Below, piece after piece: positions 22,032-36,673 of a stretch of 64,000 bases of DNA. Within the stretch, counting starts at the first letter, position 1; every line of letters starts with the position of its first letter. The position numbers were made by a program, and so were the translations under genes. The stretch spans positions 2,223,332 to 2,287,331 of the forward strand of contig NZ_CP058215.1 of the NCBI RefSeq assembly GCF_013388255.1, in the 5' to 3' direction. A model generated the notes under the pieces. The model saw only the letters and a list, made by a program, of their open reading frames with translations. It searched no databases and was not told the origin of the DNA. Source of the DNA: Methanolobus zinderi. Its GTDB lineage: Archaea > Halobacteriota > Methanosarcinia > Methanosarcinales > Methanosarcinaceae.

Positions 22032-23264
22032 ATGAAAACAATTGACGAAACAATGAGCATTTACCAGATATTGAGTGAACATCCCTCTTTATTAAAAATA
22101 TTCAAACAGCATGGAATGGGAAAATTCGAGAACCGGGAGGTGCTCGAAAAACTTGGCCCACTGCTGAAATTAAAAACAGCCCTGTCAATGGTATCGGTGA
22201 ACAGGGAATCGTTTATTGAGCTTTTGAATCAGGCTGTTGAGGACAATGAAGCAAAGGGAGATTTTACACTTGCGGATTCCCCGGAAAGACAAAAGGAGCT
22301 GAGCCTTCTTGCCCTCTTACCTTGCGGTATGAAAATGCCCTTTAATCGTGCACTTGATGCCTTTTCAACTGAGTACAGGGAAAAAACCGGCAATATGCTC
22401 CATTCCCTTGTAGAAGGTAATGTTAATCATGAGCTCTCCTACTATGCATATGTAGATTCGGTTACATCCATCGACGAACTGCCGGACATAATTATCAGTT
22501 CCGATATCAACAGTTTCTATCACAAACCCTTCCGGGAGAACTTTCTCAGCAAGGACTATTTCGTGAATCTTAATTCATCTCCCATGAACCGCGATCTGAA
22601 ATCAATAGATTATGCCGACCCACGCGACCAGTTCACCATGCTCTCTGCAAACCTGCTTGTTCTGGTGACAATAGATGAGCTCATGGAGGATGACAGTAAG
22701 CCGAAATCCTGGGAAGATGTTCTGAAAGAAGAAAACCGCAACAGGGTTGCCATGCGGGGAATGAACGGATTTTTCTGCAATGGAGTACTGCTTCCCTTCT
22801 ATCAGATGTACGGAATGGAAGGTATCAAAAAGCTTGCATCATCAATATATACAGGACTCCATCCATCCGAGATGGTGAAGATGATAGACAGCAAAAAAGA
22901 CGATGTACCGGCCATGTACATTATGCCCTACTTCTTTACCAGGAAGATCAAGGACAAGTCCAGTATAACCATCACCATTCCTTCAGAAGGAGCTATTGTA
23001 AGCCCGGTACAGATGCTGGTCAAGAAAAGTGCAGCGGAAAATGTAAAGGAGATCACGGATTTCCTTTGCGGAAAAGAGTTCGGCGAAGTCTCTGCCAGAG
23101 CCTTATTCCCTACAACGAATCCTGAAGTCGATAATGATCTTAAGGACATGCCACTTTACTGGATGGGATGGGAGTACCTGATGAATACCGATGTAGGATC
23201 TCTTAAAAAAGAGATAGCAGAGGTCTTCAATAAACAGTTCACCATCACCGGAGGTGTCTTTTGA
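22032..23264 (+). CDS. DUF1858-like domain fused to ABC-type substrate-binding fold, cytoplasmic
   Basis: A 410-residue protein. The N-terminal 65 residues (TMSIYQILSEHPSLLKIFKQHGM) resemble DUF1858. The rest (about 85-405) resembles a type 2 periplasmic binding protein of the iron/molybdate class, for example DIIISSDINSFYHKPFR and the C-terminal GWEYLMNTD. There is no signal peptide or lipobox, so the protein should stay in the cytoplasm, which is odd for this fold. The ATG follows GGGGAATAAT. Its stop overlaps the TTG start of the GTPase gene. It is the first gene of a module with a GTPase and an ABC-type ATPase, with no permease, and hgcAB follows. A role in binding and handing over a metal or cofactor is inference. 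Confidence 0.8.
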   Translation: MKTIDETMSIYQILSEHPSLLKIFKQHGMGKFENREVLEKLGPLLKLKTALSMVSVNRESFIELLNQAVEDNEAKGDFTLADSPERQKELSLLALLPCGMKMPFNRALDAFSTEYREKTGNMLHSLVEGNVNHELSYYAYVDSVTSIDELPDIIISSDINSFYHKPFRENFLSKDYFVNLNSSPMNRDLKSIDYADPRDQFTMLSANLLVLVTIDELMEDDSKPKSWEDVLKEENRNRVAMRGMNGFFCNGVLLPFYQMYGMEGIKKLASSIYTGLHPSEMVKMIDSKKDDVPAMYIMPYFFTRKIKDKSSITITIPSEGAIVSPVQMLVKKSAAENVKEITDFLCGKEFGEVSARALFPTTNPEVDNDLKDMPLYWMGWEYLMNTDVGSLKKEIAEVFNKQFTITGGVF

Positions 23265-23956
23265 GACTTGTCACGGTAGCAGGTCCTCCGTCATCAGGAA
23301 AAACCAGTATCATAATCAGGACAATTGAAGAACTCAGGCAGAAGGGACTGAATGTCGGTGTGGTCAAGTTCGACTGCCTCTCGGCTCAGGATGAAGAACT
23401 CTATTCAAGTTCCAATATTCCGGTCAGGACCGGGCTCTCTGGAGGGCTGTGTCCTGATCACTTCTTTGTGAGCAATATAGAGGAGGCACTTGGATGGGCA
23501 AAAGAGCGTAACTTCGATTATCTCATCACCGAGAGTGCCGGCCTCTGCAACCGTTGTTCTCCGCATATCAGAGATGTTCTGGCAATCTGTGTCATAGATA
23601 ATCTGAGTGGGGTCAATACGCCCAGAAAGATCGGTCCCATGCTAAAACTTGCAGATATCGTCGTCATTACCAAAGGGGATATTGTCTCCCAGGCAGAGCG
23701 TGAGGTCTTTGCATACAGGGTCCGACAGGTCAACCCCGGTGGAACGATAATTCATATCAATGGCGTTACGGGACAGGGTGGCTTCTATCTTGCAAAGCTT
23801 GTCGAGAAAAGCGGCTCGGTTGAGACACTTCAGGGAGCCATACTTAGATTTACCATGCCCGGAGCCCTGTGTTCGTACTGTCTCGGGGAAAGGAAGATCG
23901 GAGATGACAGGCAGATCGGTGTTTCAAAGCTCGTGAATTTCAGAGGGGATGATTAG
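23261..23956 (+). CDS. HypB/CooC-like P-loop GTPase with CxxC metal motifs
   Basis: A 231-residue P-loop protein of the HypB/UreG/CooC kind, usually metal-insertion GTPases or ATPases. Walker A is GPPSSGKTS (residues 8-16), a switch-like ESAGLCNRCSPH lies in the middle with a CxxC, and VVITKGD takes the place of the NKxD base-recognition motif. A second CxxC (CSYC) is near the C-terminus. The start is TTG 23261, set by a perfect GGAGGTG 4 bases upstream (23250-23256) and overlapping the previous stop. It is translationally coupled to both neighbours. By family it may load a metal into a client. The client is unknown, and the nearby corrinoid protein HgcA is one possibility. Confidence 0.85.
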   Translation: MRLVTVAGPPSSGKTSIIIRTIEELRQKGLNVGVVKFDCLSAQDEELYSSSNIPVRTGLSGGLCPDHFFVSNIEEALGWAKERNFDYLITESAGLCNRCSPHIRDVLAICVIDNLSGVNTPRKIGPMLKLADIVVITKGDIVSQAEREVFAYRVRQVNPGGTIIHINGVTGQGGFYLAKLVEKSGSVETLQGAILRFTMPGALCSYCLGERKIGDDRQIGVSKLVNFRGDD

Positions 23957-24971
23957 ATTGCGGACATATATGCTCCGGATGACAATAGATGAACTCATGG
24001 AGATGATGCCCTGGATAGAGGACTACTTCTCTTCTTTCGCCATCGATCCTGCCAGGTTTAGAGACAATAAGCTGGAAGAGCTGAGTTCTATAATCGGCGA
24101 AGATTATTTTGTTGAGAAAGGGAGTAGCTATTCCGATTTCATTGAAGGTTTCTTCCTGTTCATCGAGCAGGTAAGAGCACTTCAGCAGGAAAGCAGGTTC
24201 ATGGTTGAATCCCTGACAGTGCTCCCCGGAAAGGATAAAAAAGGCAAGAAGGAGTCCTTTTTGGTAGAACTTAAAAAGGGAGAGGTGACAGCTATAGTCG
24301 GTCCCACGGGATCAGGTAAATCACGCCTGCTTGCCGATATCGAATCCTTGGCGCAGGAAGATACTCCCACCGGGCGCAGGATACTGGTTGATGGCAGATC
24401 GCCAAGTGATGAGGAGCGTTTCTCAACCGAAGGACGTTTTATTGCACAGCTTTCACAGAACATGAACTTTGTCATGGACCTCAGTGTAGAGGACTTCCTG
24501 ACACTTCATGCTGAAAGCCGTATGGTCGATGAGATATCACATATCATCCGGAAAATATATGACACTGCAAACGTCCTGGCAGGGGAGACTTTCAGCCGGA
24601 ATACCCCTGTCACAGAGCTCTCAGGCGGACAGTCACGAGCACTGATGATAGCAGATACAGCACTTCTGAGTCCTGCATCCGTTGTCCTTATCGATGAGAT
24701 CGAGAACGCCGGGGTAGATAAGGTAAGATCCCTGGAACTTCTGGTAAGCAACAACAAGATCGTCCTGATAAGCACCCACGATCCCCTGCTGGCACTCTCG
24801 GCAGATCAGCGGCTGGTCATCAAGAACGGCGGAATCTCAAAACTGCTGAAGACCACAGAAGATGAGAAAAAGCACCTCAAGAGCCTTGAGAAGATAGACA
24901 GGAAGATAACTCTTTTAAGGGACCGGTTGAGGACGGGGGAAGAGATAGATTTGAGTGATCTTCCGGTTTGA
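23949..24971 (+). CDS. ABC-type ATPase with N-terminal DUF1858/ScdA-like domain
   Basis: A 340-residue soluble ATPase. The N-terminal 75 residues (TIDELMEMMPWIEDYFSSFAI) resemble the DUF1858/ScdA_N helical domains and echo the N-terminus of the first gene of this module. An ABC ATPase follows: Walker A GPTGSGKS (about 118-125), signature ELSGGQSRAL, Walker B VVLIDEIENAG and H-loop STHD. A charged coiled-coil-like tail ends the protein. The start is uncertain: ATG 23949 abuts GAGGGG, while TTG 23958 has better spacing to it. It overlaps the GTPase gene by 8 bases. There is no transmembrane partner, so an ordinary transporter is unlikely. Confidence 0.83.
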   Translation: MIRLRTYMLRMTIDELMEMMPWIEDYFSSFAIDPARFRDNKLEELSSIIGEDYFVEKGSSYSDFIEGFFLFIEQVRALQQESRFMVESLTVLPGKDKKGKKESFLVELKKGEVTAIVGPTGSGKSRLLADIESLAQEDTPTGRRILVDGRSPSDEERFSTEGRFIAQLSQNMNFVMDLSVEDFLTLHAESRMVDEISHIIRKIYDTANVLAGETFSRNTPVTELSGGQSRALMIADTALLSPASVVLIDEIENAGVDKVRSLELLVSNNKIVLISTHDPLLALSADQRLVIKNGGISKLLKTTEDEKKHLKSLEKIDRKITLLRDRLRTGEEIDLSDLPV

Positions 24972-25005: not shown

Positions 25006-25131
25006 TGATTATTTCATTATCAACCATAGCAGTTGCTTTTCTATTTAGCAGATAGATATATGTGTAGCATACTTTCATAGTATTAATATTCCAGACCATC
25101 TGGATGAACTATCATTACAGAGAGAAGGAAT

Positions 25132-26208
25132 ATGGATAATAAAGATACAGGCTCATGCTGCCAACCTGACAGCAAAGCGGATACAGACCAATTTATCAGA
25201 ATGATCGATCTGAACCGGAATAGCCATGCGCCTGTGATCCGTGAAACTACAAGCACCATTTCATTCAGGGACAGATCTGACCATTTCCTTGCCCGACTGG
25301 GAGTGAACAGAATGGGCCACATCGTAGAACCCGGCATCTACAGACTGGGAAACCCTGATGCGGATTCACCGGTATTCGTCTCGGCTAATTACACACTCAG
25401 CTTCGATGCGCTACGCAGCTCACTGGCGGGTATCGACTGTTACATCCTTGTAATCGATACCAAAGGGATCAATGTATGGTGTGCTGCCGGCAAAGGAACA
25501 TTCGGCACTGCAGAGATTGTATACCGTATCAGGTGGTCAGGACTCTCAGATATAATCAAGCATAGAAACATAATTTTACCTCAGCTAAGTGCTCCGGGTG
25601 TTTCTGCACATGAAGTGAGGCGCCTGTCGGGATTTAATGTAGAATACGGACCCGTACGTGCCAGGGATCTGCCGGAGTATCTTAAAACACACACTGCAAC
25701 ACCTGAAATGCGCAGAGTCCGGTTCACCTTCCGGGAAAGACTGGTGCTGACACCCATAGAATTAACCCATATTGTTCTGCCAACATTGATCGCTGCCCTT
25801 ATTCTCTATTTGCTGGCCGGTCCTTTTGCAGCATTCATAGCAATCTTAATTGCATTTACAGGAGCTGTATTGTTCCCTGTTCTGTATCCTTTCATCCCGA
25901 CACAGGACTTTAGCACAAAAGGACTTATCCTGGGCGCAATCGTAACAATTCCTTTTGCAGCAACTATTGCAGCTGGCTCTGAGCTCCTTTTGTGGGAGAG
26001 AATAGTTGCTGTGTTAACAACATTCCTTTTAACCGCCTCAGTAACCGCATACCTTGCCCTCAATTTCACAGGTTGCACAACCCATACATCAAGAACAGGT
26101 GTCAAAAAAGAGATTTTCAGATACGTGCCTTTGATGGCACTTATGGCAGTTACGGGAATGTTACTCCTTATCATTCTCGGGATAACTCGTTTAATGGAAG
26201 TGATCTGA
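25132..26208 (+). CDS. hgcA: Mercury methylation corrinoid protein HgcA
   Basis: HgcA transfers a methyl group from its corrinoid to Hg(II), with HgcB supplying electrons. It is required for methylmercury formation in anaerobes. The 358-residue protein has the diagnostic cap-helix motif NVWCAAGK (residues 114-121); Cys117 matches the cysteine that coordinates cobalt in studied HgcA proteins. The N-terminal half (about 30-200) is the CFeSP-like corrinoid domain. The C-terminal half has five predicted membrane helices (from about 215 to 355), the known HgcA architecture. The ATG follows AGAAGGAAT. Its stop overlaps the hgcB start (TGATG). The N-terminus carries an extra cysteine pair, SCCQ, at residues 8-11. 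Confidence 0.97.
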   Translation: MDNKDTGSCCQPDSKADTDQFIRMIDLNRNSHAPVIRETTSTISFRDRSDHFLARLGVNRMGHIVEPGIYRLGNPDADSPVFVSANYTLSFDALRSSLAGIDCYILVIDTKGINVWCAAGKGTFGTAEIVYRIRWSGLSDIIKHRNIILPQLSAPGVSAHEVRRLSGFNVEYGPVRARDLPEYLKTHTATPEMRRVRFTFRERLVLTPIELTHIVLPTLIAALILYLLAGPFAAFIAILIAFTGAVLFPVLYPFIPTQDFSTKGLILGAIVTIPFAATIAAGSELLLWERIVAVLTTFLLTASVTAYLALNFTGCTTHTSRTGVKKEIFRYVPLMALMAVTGMLLLIILGITRLMEVI

Positions 26209-26498
26209 TGTTTGATTCATATAATGAGAATACTCTGCAATATTATCCTGAAAAGTGTATCAACTGTCTTATGTGCACACAGGTCTGCCCTCATGGAGTG
26301 TTCACTGGAGGAGGGGAACACGTTGAACTCAAAAGACCTTCATCGTGTATGGAATGCGGAGCATGCGCAATGAATTGTCCCGTGCAGGCAATTGAAGTTC
26401 AGAGTGGAGTTGGATGTGCCTGGGCAATGATAAGAGCAGCCCTCAGAGGTAAGGACATGGATAGTGCTGACTGTTGTTGCAACGGTGATTCTTGTTAA
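26208..26498 (+). CDS. hgcB: Mercury methylation ferredoxin HgcB
   Basis: A 96-residue ferredoxin with two [4Fe-4S] motifs, CINCLMCTQVCP and CMECGACAMNCP. The second contains the CMECGAC signature typical of HgcB. A further cysteine in VGCAW and a C-terminal cysteine cluster (CCCNGDSC) match the conserved extra cysteines that are thought to bind mercury or pass it to HgcA. The ATG at 26208 overlaps the hgcA stop, with GGAAGTGATC just upstream, so it is coupled to hgcA. Its role is electron donation to the corrinoid of HgcA. Confidence 0.97.
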   Translation: MFDSYNENTLQYYPEKCINCLMCTQVCPHGVFTGGGEHVELKRPSSCMECGACAMNCPVQAIEVQSGVGCAWAMIRAALRGKDMDSADCCCNGDSC

Positions 26499-33974: not shown

Positions 33975-34733
33975 TCACTTCTTTTGTTCCTCGGAAAGCA
34001 ATTTCAGCAAATGGTTACGCAACTGGTTGACTTCCAGACTTGTCCTGTCACGGGGTCTTGGAATATCAACCCTTGTGATCTCCTTGATCTTACCCGGGCG
34101 TGCGGTGAACATCACGATCCTGTCAGCCAGGAAAACAGCCTCATCCACACTGTGTGTGACAAAGAGGACAGTAAGATGCTTTTTTTGCCATATGTTGAGT
34201 AACTCATGCTGCAGAGAATTTCTTGTCTGGGCATCCAGTGCTCCGAAGGGTTCATCCATCAGCAGCACTTCAGGTTCGTTTGCAAGGGCACGTGCAATGG
34301 CAACCCTCTGTTTCATTCCACCTGAGAGTTCATGGGGATAGCTGTCCCTGAACTGTGTAAGACCCACAAGTTCCAGATATTTTTCAGCTTCCTCAAGAGC
34401 CTCATTTCTGGGAATTCCTCTCATCCTGGGACCGAATATTATGTTGTCTTTGACCGATTTCCATGGAAAGAGAGAGTATTCCTGAAACACCATACCTCTC
34501 TTGGGTCCGGGACCGGTTATTTTCTCATTACCCACGACTATCTCACCCTGATCGGGCGTGTCAAGACCTGAGATGACCCTGAGAAGGGTGGTCTTTCCAC
34601 ATCCTGAAGGTCCGATAAAGCATACGAATTCCTGATCCTTGATGTCAAGGTCTATATTGTCAAGAGCAAGGGTCTGAGTGACCTCATCTTTTACAAACTT
34701 ACGCGAGACGCCTTTTACACTGACACTGCTCAT
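33975..34733 (-). CDS. ABC transporter ATP-binding protein, SsuB/TauB family
   Basis: A 252-residue ATPase of the nitrate/sulfonate/taurine importer family. Walker A is GPSGCGKTT, the signature is LSGGMKQRV and Walker B is VLLMDEPFGALD, with H-loop VTHS. The start ATG 34733 overlaps the permease stop (TAATG) and has GGTGATGTA upstream. An extension to 34757 would lie inside the permease gene. It is the last gene of a permease-ATPase pair downstream of the binding protein. It ends convergently, 18 bases from the bactofilin-like gene. Confidence 0.94.
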   Translation of the reverse strand: MSSVSVKGVSRKFVKDEVTQTLALDNIDLDIKDQEFVCFIGPSGCGKTTLLRVISGLDTPDQGEIVVGNEKITGPGPKRGMVFQEYSLFPWKSVKDNIIFGPRMRGIPRNEALEEAEKYLELVGLTQFRDSYPHELSGGMKQRVAIARALANEPEVLLMDEPFGALDAQTRNSLQHELLNIWQKKHLTVLFVTHSVDEAVFLADRIVMFTARPGKIKEITRVDIPRPRDRTSLEVNQLRNHLLKLLSEEQKK

Positions 34734-35554
34734 TACATCACCACCCCTGTACGCCACTTGAGGAACCTTCCTTCAAGATAATAGCGTAGCATGCGGTCGA
34801 TAAGCAGTCCCAGGAATCCCAGCACAAGCATGTAGACAAGTACGAAATCCATATTGTGCAGGTAGTAGTGGTGCCATATCTTATAGCCAAGTCCGTTCCT
34901 GCTAACACCGAACATCTCCGCAGCTACCAGACACATCCATCCGACTCCCATGGCAATACGCACACCGGCAACTATCGAGGGTAGTGCCGAAGGAAGTGCA
35001 ACATGTCGTATCAGTTCACGGTCGGTATTACATCCCAGGACCTTAGCGGCTTCCACATATATACGGGGAATGTTCTTGAAGCCGGTAAAGGTGTTGATCA
35101 CTATTGGAAACAGGGCTCCTATGAATATCACGAATCCCGCCCCGAAGGGGTTAAGGCCAATCCATATGATGGCAAAGGGAATCCAGGCAAGTGGCGGAAT
35201 CGGACGAACTATCTCAATGAGAGGGTCAAGTACCCTGTCAACCGATCGGAACCATCCCATGAGCATACCCACAGGCATGCCTACCAGGAGTGCAGCTATG
35301 AGACCTATTAAGAAATGCATCATACTGTACAAAAGATCTACAATCAGCACAGGCAGCTCCATGGAGAGCAAAGGAAAGTTAACCTGCCTTGAGATCACAG
35401 AAATAAATGCAAGGGAAACATCTGTAAAGCTTGGAAGGAAGAATTTATTCTGTACTACATAAACAGCTACAAGCTGCCATATAACCAATGCAGCCAGAAT
35501 GGAAAAAATTTCCACGCCCTTATCCTTTAAACTTTGAAAATGTTCCCTGACCAT
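34733..35554 (-). CDS. ABC transporter permease, SsuC/TauC family
   Basis: A 273-residue permease with about six membrane segments and the EAA-type loop EAAKVLGCNTDRELIRHVALP. GGAGGAATA precedes the ATG. It pairs with the ATPase downstream and the lipoprotein upstream (90-base gap). Confidence 0.94.
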   Translation of the reverse strand: MVREHFQSLKDKGVEIFSILAALVIWQLVAVYVVQNKFFLPSFTDVSLAFISVISRQVNFPLLSMELPVLIVDLLYSMMHFLIGLIAALLVGMPVGMLMGWFRSVDRVLDPLIEIVRPIPPLAWIPFAIIWIGLNPFGAGFVIFIGALFPIVINTFTGFKNIPRIYVEAAKVLGCNTDRELIRHVALPSALPSIVAGVRIAMGVGWMCLVAAEMFGVSRNGLGYKIWHHYYLHNMDFVLVYMLVLGFLGLLIDRMLRYYLEGRFLKWRTGVVM

Positions 35555-35644
35555 TATTCCTCCGGTTTGAAAAAAATCAGTATTATTTTAGACCGGTTTG
35601 TAAATGTTTTTATCATTATTCAACTTACTGCTAAAATAAAAAAA

Positions 35645-36673
35645 TTATTGATCCAGAGCTTCATAGAAGCTCAGATCAAATATGTCATCCTGCTCAAGTG
35701 GTGCACTGATGTAACCAAGTTCGTACTGTACCTGAGCATAGTCCACTGTGGAGTTGACTATGAGGTTTGGATCTGAGACCCATTCTCCGTCCCAGTCATT
35801 AATCGACTGCTCTACGACTTCAACATCCCAGTCCTGGTCATCGGCAAATATCTGTGCTGCCTCATCAGGGTTCTCCACTGTATACTCGGTTGCACGTACG
35901 TGTGTTTCCACGATCTGCTGGACCATTTCAGGGTTCTCACGAATGAGATCACCGCTAACGACAACAACACAGCATGCGTGATCTTCCTGGATCTCACCTG
36001 AAGATACTACTGATCTGCCAACGCCTTCCTCTGCAATGAGAGTTGGTGCGGGATGTGGCAGGAACACAGCATCAACCTGTTCGGCTGAGATAGCTGTCAT
36101 CGCATCTCCCGGACCCATTGGTACGATGGTAACATCGTTCTCTGGATCGATGTTGTTTGACTCAAGCCAGTTCCTCAGGAGTGTATCCTGTATTGTTCCT
36201 GGCGGGAAGGTGGCTATTCTCAGGCCTTTCAGATCTTCCGGACTCTCGTATTCATATTCATTACGCAATACGATATCAGACCCCTGTATCTGTGCCGCAG
36301 CAACGATCTTTCCGTCCAGGCCATTTGCAATAGCAGCTACCACCGGGGCAGCACCTACATATGCTACATCCAGCTCACCTGAGAGCATGGCCTGCATTTC
36401 AGGAGCGCCTGTAGGGAATACATTGTCATTTAGTGTTTCAACACCAAATGGAGAGAGATCTTCAGTCCACCATCCATTATCTTTTGCTGCAAGATAGGCA
36501 ATCTGGTGGGTACTTGGCTGATAACCGAATGTTAGTTCTGTAACCGTTGCTCCTTCTGTTTCGTTTCCTGTGTCTGTACCCTGTTCTGCGCAGCCGGACA
36601 CGAGTACGGCCACAGCCACAAGAATTGTTAATATCAAAAATGTGGATGATTTTAGAAACTTTCTGCTGTCCAT
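35645..36673 (-). CDS. Substrate-binding lipoprotein of SsuABC-type importer
   Basis: A 342-residue binding protein with a lipobox-type signal (LVAVAVLVSGC) and the NMT1/SsuA fold: FGYQPSTHQIAYLAAKDNGWW, then VAYVGAAPVVAAIANG and GLRIATFPPGTIQDTLL. The family carries alkanesulfonates, nitrate, taurine or thiamine precursors. The substrate is not decided by sequence; for a methanogen a sulfonate or similar is plausible. GGTGATAAT precedes the ATG. A minus-strand TATA region lies near 36708-36730. A divergent HTH regulator lies 154 bases away. Confidence 0.92.
   Translation of the reverse strand: MDSRKFLKSSTFLILTILVAVAVLVSGCAEQGTDTGNETEGATVTELTFGYQPSTHQIAYLAAKDNGWWTEDLSPFGVETLNDNVFPTGAPEMQAMLSGELDVAYVGAAPVVAAIANGLDGKIVAAAQIQGSDIVLRNEYEYESPEDLKGLRIATFPPGTIQDTLLRNWLESNNIDPENDVTIVPMGPGDAMTAISAEQVDAVFLPHPAPTLIAEEGVGRSVVSSGEIQEDHACCVVVVSGDLIRENPEMVQQIVETHVRATEYTVENPDEAAQIFADDQDWDVEVVEQSINDWDGEWVSDPNLIVNSTVDYAQVQYELGYISAPLEQDDIFDLSFYEALDQ

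Follow-up and report, generated by a model that had tools for sequence, protein, structure and literature searches.

Analysis of the window, i.e. the whole stretch of 64,000 nucleotides, revealed an hgcAB gene pair which very probably represents a canonical chromosomal two-gene hgcAB operon of Methanolobus, with a mechanism transferred from other organisms. Both genes are intact and belong to the HgcA and HgcB families, and their products retain the conserved catalytic residues and the HgcA membrane domain; the chemistry and a methylmercury phenotype are predicted by analogy. The pair is a further case of a well-known gene pair, and hgcAB in Methanolobus has already been published.

The hgcAB locus and family assignment

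The genome holding the window consists of a single contig of 2,704,953 bp, on which hgcA and hgcB are adjacent and located on the same strand. The following features were assigned (window positions):

25050..25064, + strand: TATA-like element AGATAGATATATGTG, putative promoter, shared 5' of hgcA by 12 loci of the HgcA clade to which the window belongs
25090..25104, + strand: dyad TCCAGA-N3-TCTGGA, situated some 42 nt 5' of the hgcA start codon; a candidate for an operator or for a hairpin in the 5' UTR
25132..26208, + strand: hgcA, mercury-methylation corrinoid protein of 358 aa, intact; NF040863, 441.4 bits against a cut-off of 275
25156..25161, + strand: codons of the HgcA pair Cys9-Cys10; the N-terminal extension in which it lies covers residues 1 to about 42 and is disordered
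25471..25494, + strand: cap motif NVWCAAGK, HgcA residues 114-121, invariant in 61 HgcAs and aligned to the CFeSP large subunit (2h9a/2ycl)
25480-25482, + strand: codon of Cys117, the cap-motif cysteine
25747..26202, + strand: HgcA membrane domain with five long helices, residues 206-357 (AlphaFold2 model m8b3e0e3d30c8; full-length match to 9a0b)
26208..26498, + strand: hgcB, dicluster ferredoxin of 96 aa, intact; NF040864, 114.6 bits against a cut-off of 99
26256..26288, + strand: first [4Fe-4S] motif of HgcB, C17/C20/C23/C27 (CxxCxxCxxxC), invariant in ten HgcBs
26346..26378, + strand: second [4Fe-4S] motif of HgcB, C47/C50/C53/C57 (CxxCxxCxxxC), invariant in ten HgcBs
26415..26417, + strand: HgcB Cys70, corresponding to Cys73, which is essential in ND132; part of an invariant SGVGC motif
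26472..26495, + strand: cysteine tail of HgcB, CCCNGDSC, residues 89-96

Family membership was judged by the curated NCBIfam equivalog cut-offs, which are 275 bits for NF040863 (HgcA_corrinoid), 99 for NF040864 (HgcB_ferredoxin) and 285 for NF043039 (HgcAB-like fusion). HgcA and HgcB matched the first two with E-values of 1.8e-132 and 1.4e-33, respectively, so low that the match lies far above chance. With the fusion family HgcA scored 220.8 bits, below the cut-off, and hgcA and hgcB are separate genes with no fused chain. The Pfam family PF03599 (CdhD) covers the corrinoid domain of HgcA only; its remaining matches on the chromosome are two strong CODH/ACS subunits located elsewhere and one weak sub-threshold match. 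The one-base overlap of the genes described in the initial annotation is present, the TGA stop of hgcA (26206-26208) and the ATG of hgcB at 26208 having one A in common.

Plasmid carriage of hgcAB was rejected, as no HgcA match was found in 72,556 plasmid records. Selenocysteine in the hgcAB pair of the window was also rejected, its Cys residues using Cys codons and none being encoded by TGA. The HgcAs with a short extension were checked for a read-through TGA, and no convincing Sec site was found among them.

Conserved residues and protein structure

The NVWCAAGK motif begins at residue 114, which places its cysteine at Cys117 as had been annotated initially. The motif conforms to the pattern N(V/I)WC(A/S)(A/S)GK and is unchanged across all 61 aligned HgcAs, so that the cap-motif cysteine is retained. 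All 44 invariant positions of this alignment are present in HgcA of the window, which is 65-73% identical to the HgcAs of Methanolobus/Methanosarcinaceae and 65-72% to those of M. bombayensis, M. vulcani and other Methanolobus.

The AlphaFold2 model of HgcA (mean pLDDT 85) comprises an alpha/beta corrinoid domain and five membrane helices, in agreement with the five-helix membrane domain initially proposed. Residues 1-26 have a pLDDT below 50, as do residues 115-123, and the cap helix is not reproduced in this cofactor-free model. Via Foldseek, the HgcAB model 9a0b was identified as the best PDB match (E = 9e-18, 40% identity), followed by CFeSP chains.

HgcB contains 13 cysteines: 17/20/23/27, 47/50/53/57, C70, C89-C90-C91 and C96. 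The two features that had been pointed out in it, the CMECGAC sequence and a cysteine-rich tail, were found at residues 47-53 and as C89-C90-C91 with C96, and all nine invariant HgcB cysteines are present. Its identity to nine relatives ranges from 75 to 83%, except for one at 63%, and that to other Methanolobus from 76 to 84%. The numbering is offset by 3 from that of Pseudodesulfovibrio mercurii ND132, C70 corresponding to Cys73 there. ND132 depends on HgcB C73 and on one or more of the tail cysteines, and the tail has been proposed as a shuttle for Hg(II) or methylmercury (PMC7305189).

Phylogeny and distribution

A quick maximum-likelihood HgcA tree with SH-aLRT support only was constructed from 95 rows, a sample consisting of close relatives of the window protein in which deep bacterial HgcA is thin. 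HgcA of the window grouped in a 12-row Methanolobus-type clade (SH-aLRT 100), nested in a 23-row Methanosarcinaceae clade (96) that includes Methanomethylovorans hollandica (locus L184). The genome of the latter (G091) was identified as that of strain DSM 15978 by 8 kb of sequence 100% identical to plasmid NC_019972.1. A very long branch of their own leads to the HgcAB-like fusions (L179/L180). The initial assignment thus withstood the phylogenetic check: HgcA, with NF040863 passed and NF043039 failed, did not group with CFeSP or HgcA-like paralogues.

HgcA was identified in 51 of 393 genomes of a phylum-wide sample, and the 14 control genomes yielded none. The 26 other Methanolobus genomes comprise 14 with a full-length hgcA, one with a frameshifted hgcAB (G014) and 11 in which none was found; these 11 gave CODH/ACS matches only or, in one incomplete genome, no match at all. 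In G014 (locus L050, contig C47, 3561-4960) hgcA and hgcB are both frameshifted, with the TRAM-domain gene still adjoining, and constitute a genuine pseudogene pair and a natural loss of hgcAB. A Sec reading of the TGA stops in this pair was rejected, the stops representing frameshift decay. Since hgcAB has decayed in this sister Methanolobus, its function is dispensable. For the HgcA core, dN/dS was about 0.1 in most pairs of close relatives and 0.24 in one pair, which on this measure places the core under strong purifying selection in close relatives.

Upstream region and neighbouring genes

The dyad TCCAGA-N3-TCTGGA occurs in one copy in the entire genome. In most of the 11 clade relatives, TTCAAA-N4-TTTGAA or a closely similar sequence lies about 41 nt 5' of the start codon, i.e. 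at about the same place, whereas the sequence of the dyad in the window is different; the centres of the two dyads differ by half a base, and strict compensation can therefore not be claimed. About half of the loci, among them those of M. hollandica and some Methanolobus, have an abrB/prlF-type gene directly 5' of hgcA, an arrangement already described for archaea (PMC10349881). This gene is absent from the hgcA locus of the window and from its 12-locus clade, which has the TATA-like element and a dyad instead.

The genes at 22032-24971 form a cluster of three. One product combines DUF1858 with an SBP_bac_6 substrate-binding domain and shows no obvious signal peptide; another is a HypB/CobW-like GTPase in which additional cysteines occur, and the third is an ABC ATPase that stands alone, no permease gene adjoining it. 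Eight other Methanolobus have the same genes 5' of hgcA, and in these TRAM-domain and DEAD-box helicase genes lie downstream, while in the window a UppP-like gene does. The cluster is patchy in Methanolobus, shows 79-82% identity in four other Methanosarcinaceae genomes (G099, G101, G102 and G128), and is otherwise represented in the phylum by a single distant homologue (34%). A role specific to hgcAB was rejected for it, as in G003 and G004 the genes are not linked to hgcAB, G007 has them but no hgcA, and they also occur in the four Methanosarcinaceae genomes, where the HgcAB-like scan gave no full-length HgcA match. As the upstream genes also occur in Methanosarcinaceae genomes without detected HgcA, they are not part of the hgcAB system. 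In G003 (locus L177, 33-8364) the three-gene cluster and the UppP-like gene lie together, with hgcAB on another contig, and this arrangement suggests that hgcAB moved within Methanolobus.

Further downstream, at 33975-36673, a NitT/TauT-type ABC transporter is encoded, of which the ATPase and permease best match SaoA and SaoP. Assignment to the SAO (Sec-assisted organometallic) system was rejected: the ABC genes at 33975-35554 score 285 for SaoA (cut-off 360) and 171 for SaoP (cut-off 295), the examined Methanolobus flanks show no linkage of the genes at 33975-36673 to hgcA, and hgcA and hgcB carry Cys codons.

Predicted mechanism and comparison with known systems

By analogy with other organisms, the two [4Fe-4S] clusters of HgcB would pass electrons to reduce the corrinoid in the cytosolic domain of HgcA, where Cys117 would be the lower ligand of the corrinoid cobalt. 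The corrinoid would then be methylated; in the single system studied in vitro, purified HgcAB takes the methyl group for its own corrinoid from S-adenosylmethionine (PMC11588087). Finally, the methyl group would be transferred to Hg(II) brought by Cys70 and the tail cysteines of HgcB. That hgcAB methylation is established in some Methanolobus and Methanomethylovorans, as the initial annotation stated, is borne out by culture assays, which were positive for Methanolobus tindarius and M. hollandica (PMC5893877).

A close comparison with a proven methylator is offered by M. hollandica DSM 15978, which shares the two-gene order, the cap motif, the ferredoxin motifs, the tail and the 23-row clade, and whose HgcA is about 61% identical to that of the window over the matched core. 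It differs in an HgcA extension with CSC instead of CC and in the abrB/prlF-type gene directly 5' of hgcAB. The best studied HgcAB, that of ND132 (model 9a0b), is alike in fold over the whole protein at 40% identity, and the equivalents of its cap Cys, Cys73 and tail cysteines are present in the window; in ND132 an ArsR-like regulator controls hgcAB (PMC10349881), whereas no arsR adjoins hgcA in the window.

The possibility that the pair is a CFeSP-type, HgcA-like or HgcAB-fusion paralogue with another role in methyl transfer and no Hg methylation has to be considered, because the corrinoid domain is common to HgcA and CFeSP (2h9a, 2ycl, 4djd) and NF043039 also matches HgcA, under its cut-off. 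The fusions of the Methanococcoides type share not only the corrinoid domain but also membrane helices and a ferredoxin domain, and fused-gene strains are reported as non-methylating, Methanococcoides methylutens among them (PMC5893877). However, the fusions are a single chain with the motif NVWCSA and lie far from HgcA of the window in the tree, while the pair of the window is unfused and passes NF040863 and NF040864 but fails NF043039. The CFeSP large subunit, for its part, lacks a membrane domain such as the five-helix one of HgcA, and a non-Cys residue stands opposite Cys117 in the 2h9a alignment. A paralogue of this kind is therefore very improbable. It is also unlikely, though less remotely so, that hgcAB is intact here but silent or unused, in transition to loss, with no methylmercury made. 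The patchiness of hgcAB in the genus, the frameshifted pair in G014 and the absence of the abrB/prlF gene that accompanies many archaeal hgcA genes could point in that direction; the complete reading frames, the purifying selection on the HgcA core in close relatives and the conserved TATA-like promoter 5' of hgcA argue against it.

Cysteine-rich N-terminal extension of HgcA

The additional cysteine pair at residues 9-10, considered worth noting in the initial annotation, proved to be real, M1 being preceded by a plausible ribosome-binding site, and most members of the Methanolobus-type clade share the start codon and the Cys pair. Sequence comparison assigns the pair to a cysteine-rich extension common to many methanogen HgcAs. 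Among 90 distinct HgcAs, a set gathered by similarity to the window protein in which distant bacterial HgcAs are under-represented, Cys makes up 8.1% of the extension versus 0.78% of the core, and CC or CxC occurs in the extension of 66, compared with a mean of 2 and a maximum of 8 in shuffles. The extension takes the form CC in Methanolobus and CCSC...CSC in Methanomicrobiales, where it is richest, e.g. METSCCCSCSEQKISCSCS in Methanospirillum. It is missing or short in the HgcAs of Methanomassiliicoccales, ANME-related and WOR-3 lineages. As Methanomassiliicoccales nevertheless include a strong Hg methylator, M. luminyensis, the extension is not required for methylation in general and is probably accessory.

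In a 2026 review, a selenoprotein form of HgcA with the motif CU and one of HgcB with GVGU are described (PMC13188914). The GVGU site is the Cys73 equivalent. Among the conserved HgcA sites, the CU site would fit only a vicinal pair outside the cap motif, such as Cys9-Cys10. In the open literature searched, which did not extend to Haft and Gwadz 2023, no description of the cysteine-rich extension was found.

Cys9-Cys10 would probably serve Hg(II) or the native substrate as an accessory thiol site. It is conceivable, though we regard it as doubtful, that the extension in methanogens forms a second flexible thiol site which, beside the HgcB tail, captures or hands over Hg(II) or a native metal(loid) substrate, and that together with a clade-specific dyad replacing abrB/prlF it marks a methanogen-specific variant of HgcAB. 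There is a modest chance, too, that the extension is untranslated, or neutral low-complexity sequence without function. It is disordered in the AlphaFold2 model, and has diverged more rapidly than the core (dN/dS mostly 0.2-0.6, with one pair at 0.95, against about 0.1-0.24); one Methanolobus HgcA (L043, genome G019) has no Cys in it. Coevolution of the N-terminal cysteines with those of the HgcB tail was rejected, since the raw rho of 0.66 fell to r = 0.11 (p = 0.34) under independent contrasts, for which there were only 7 informative independent pairs. Against a neutral or untranslated extension stand the tenfold Cys enrichment, the excess of CC/CxC over every shuffle, the retained start codon and Cys pair, and the apparent fit of the CU motif.

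Significance

With the hgcAB pair of the window, one more complete Methanolobus genome is placed among the predicted methylmercury producers. The genus provides a clean comparison set (14 intact, one pseudogene and 11 with no copy detected) in which the purpose of hgcAB can be addressed, and the widespread cysteine-rich extension of HgcA is a specific, testable feature which has been less noticed than hgcAB itself.
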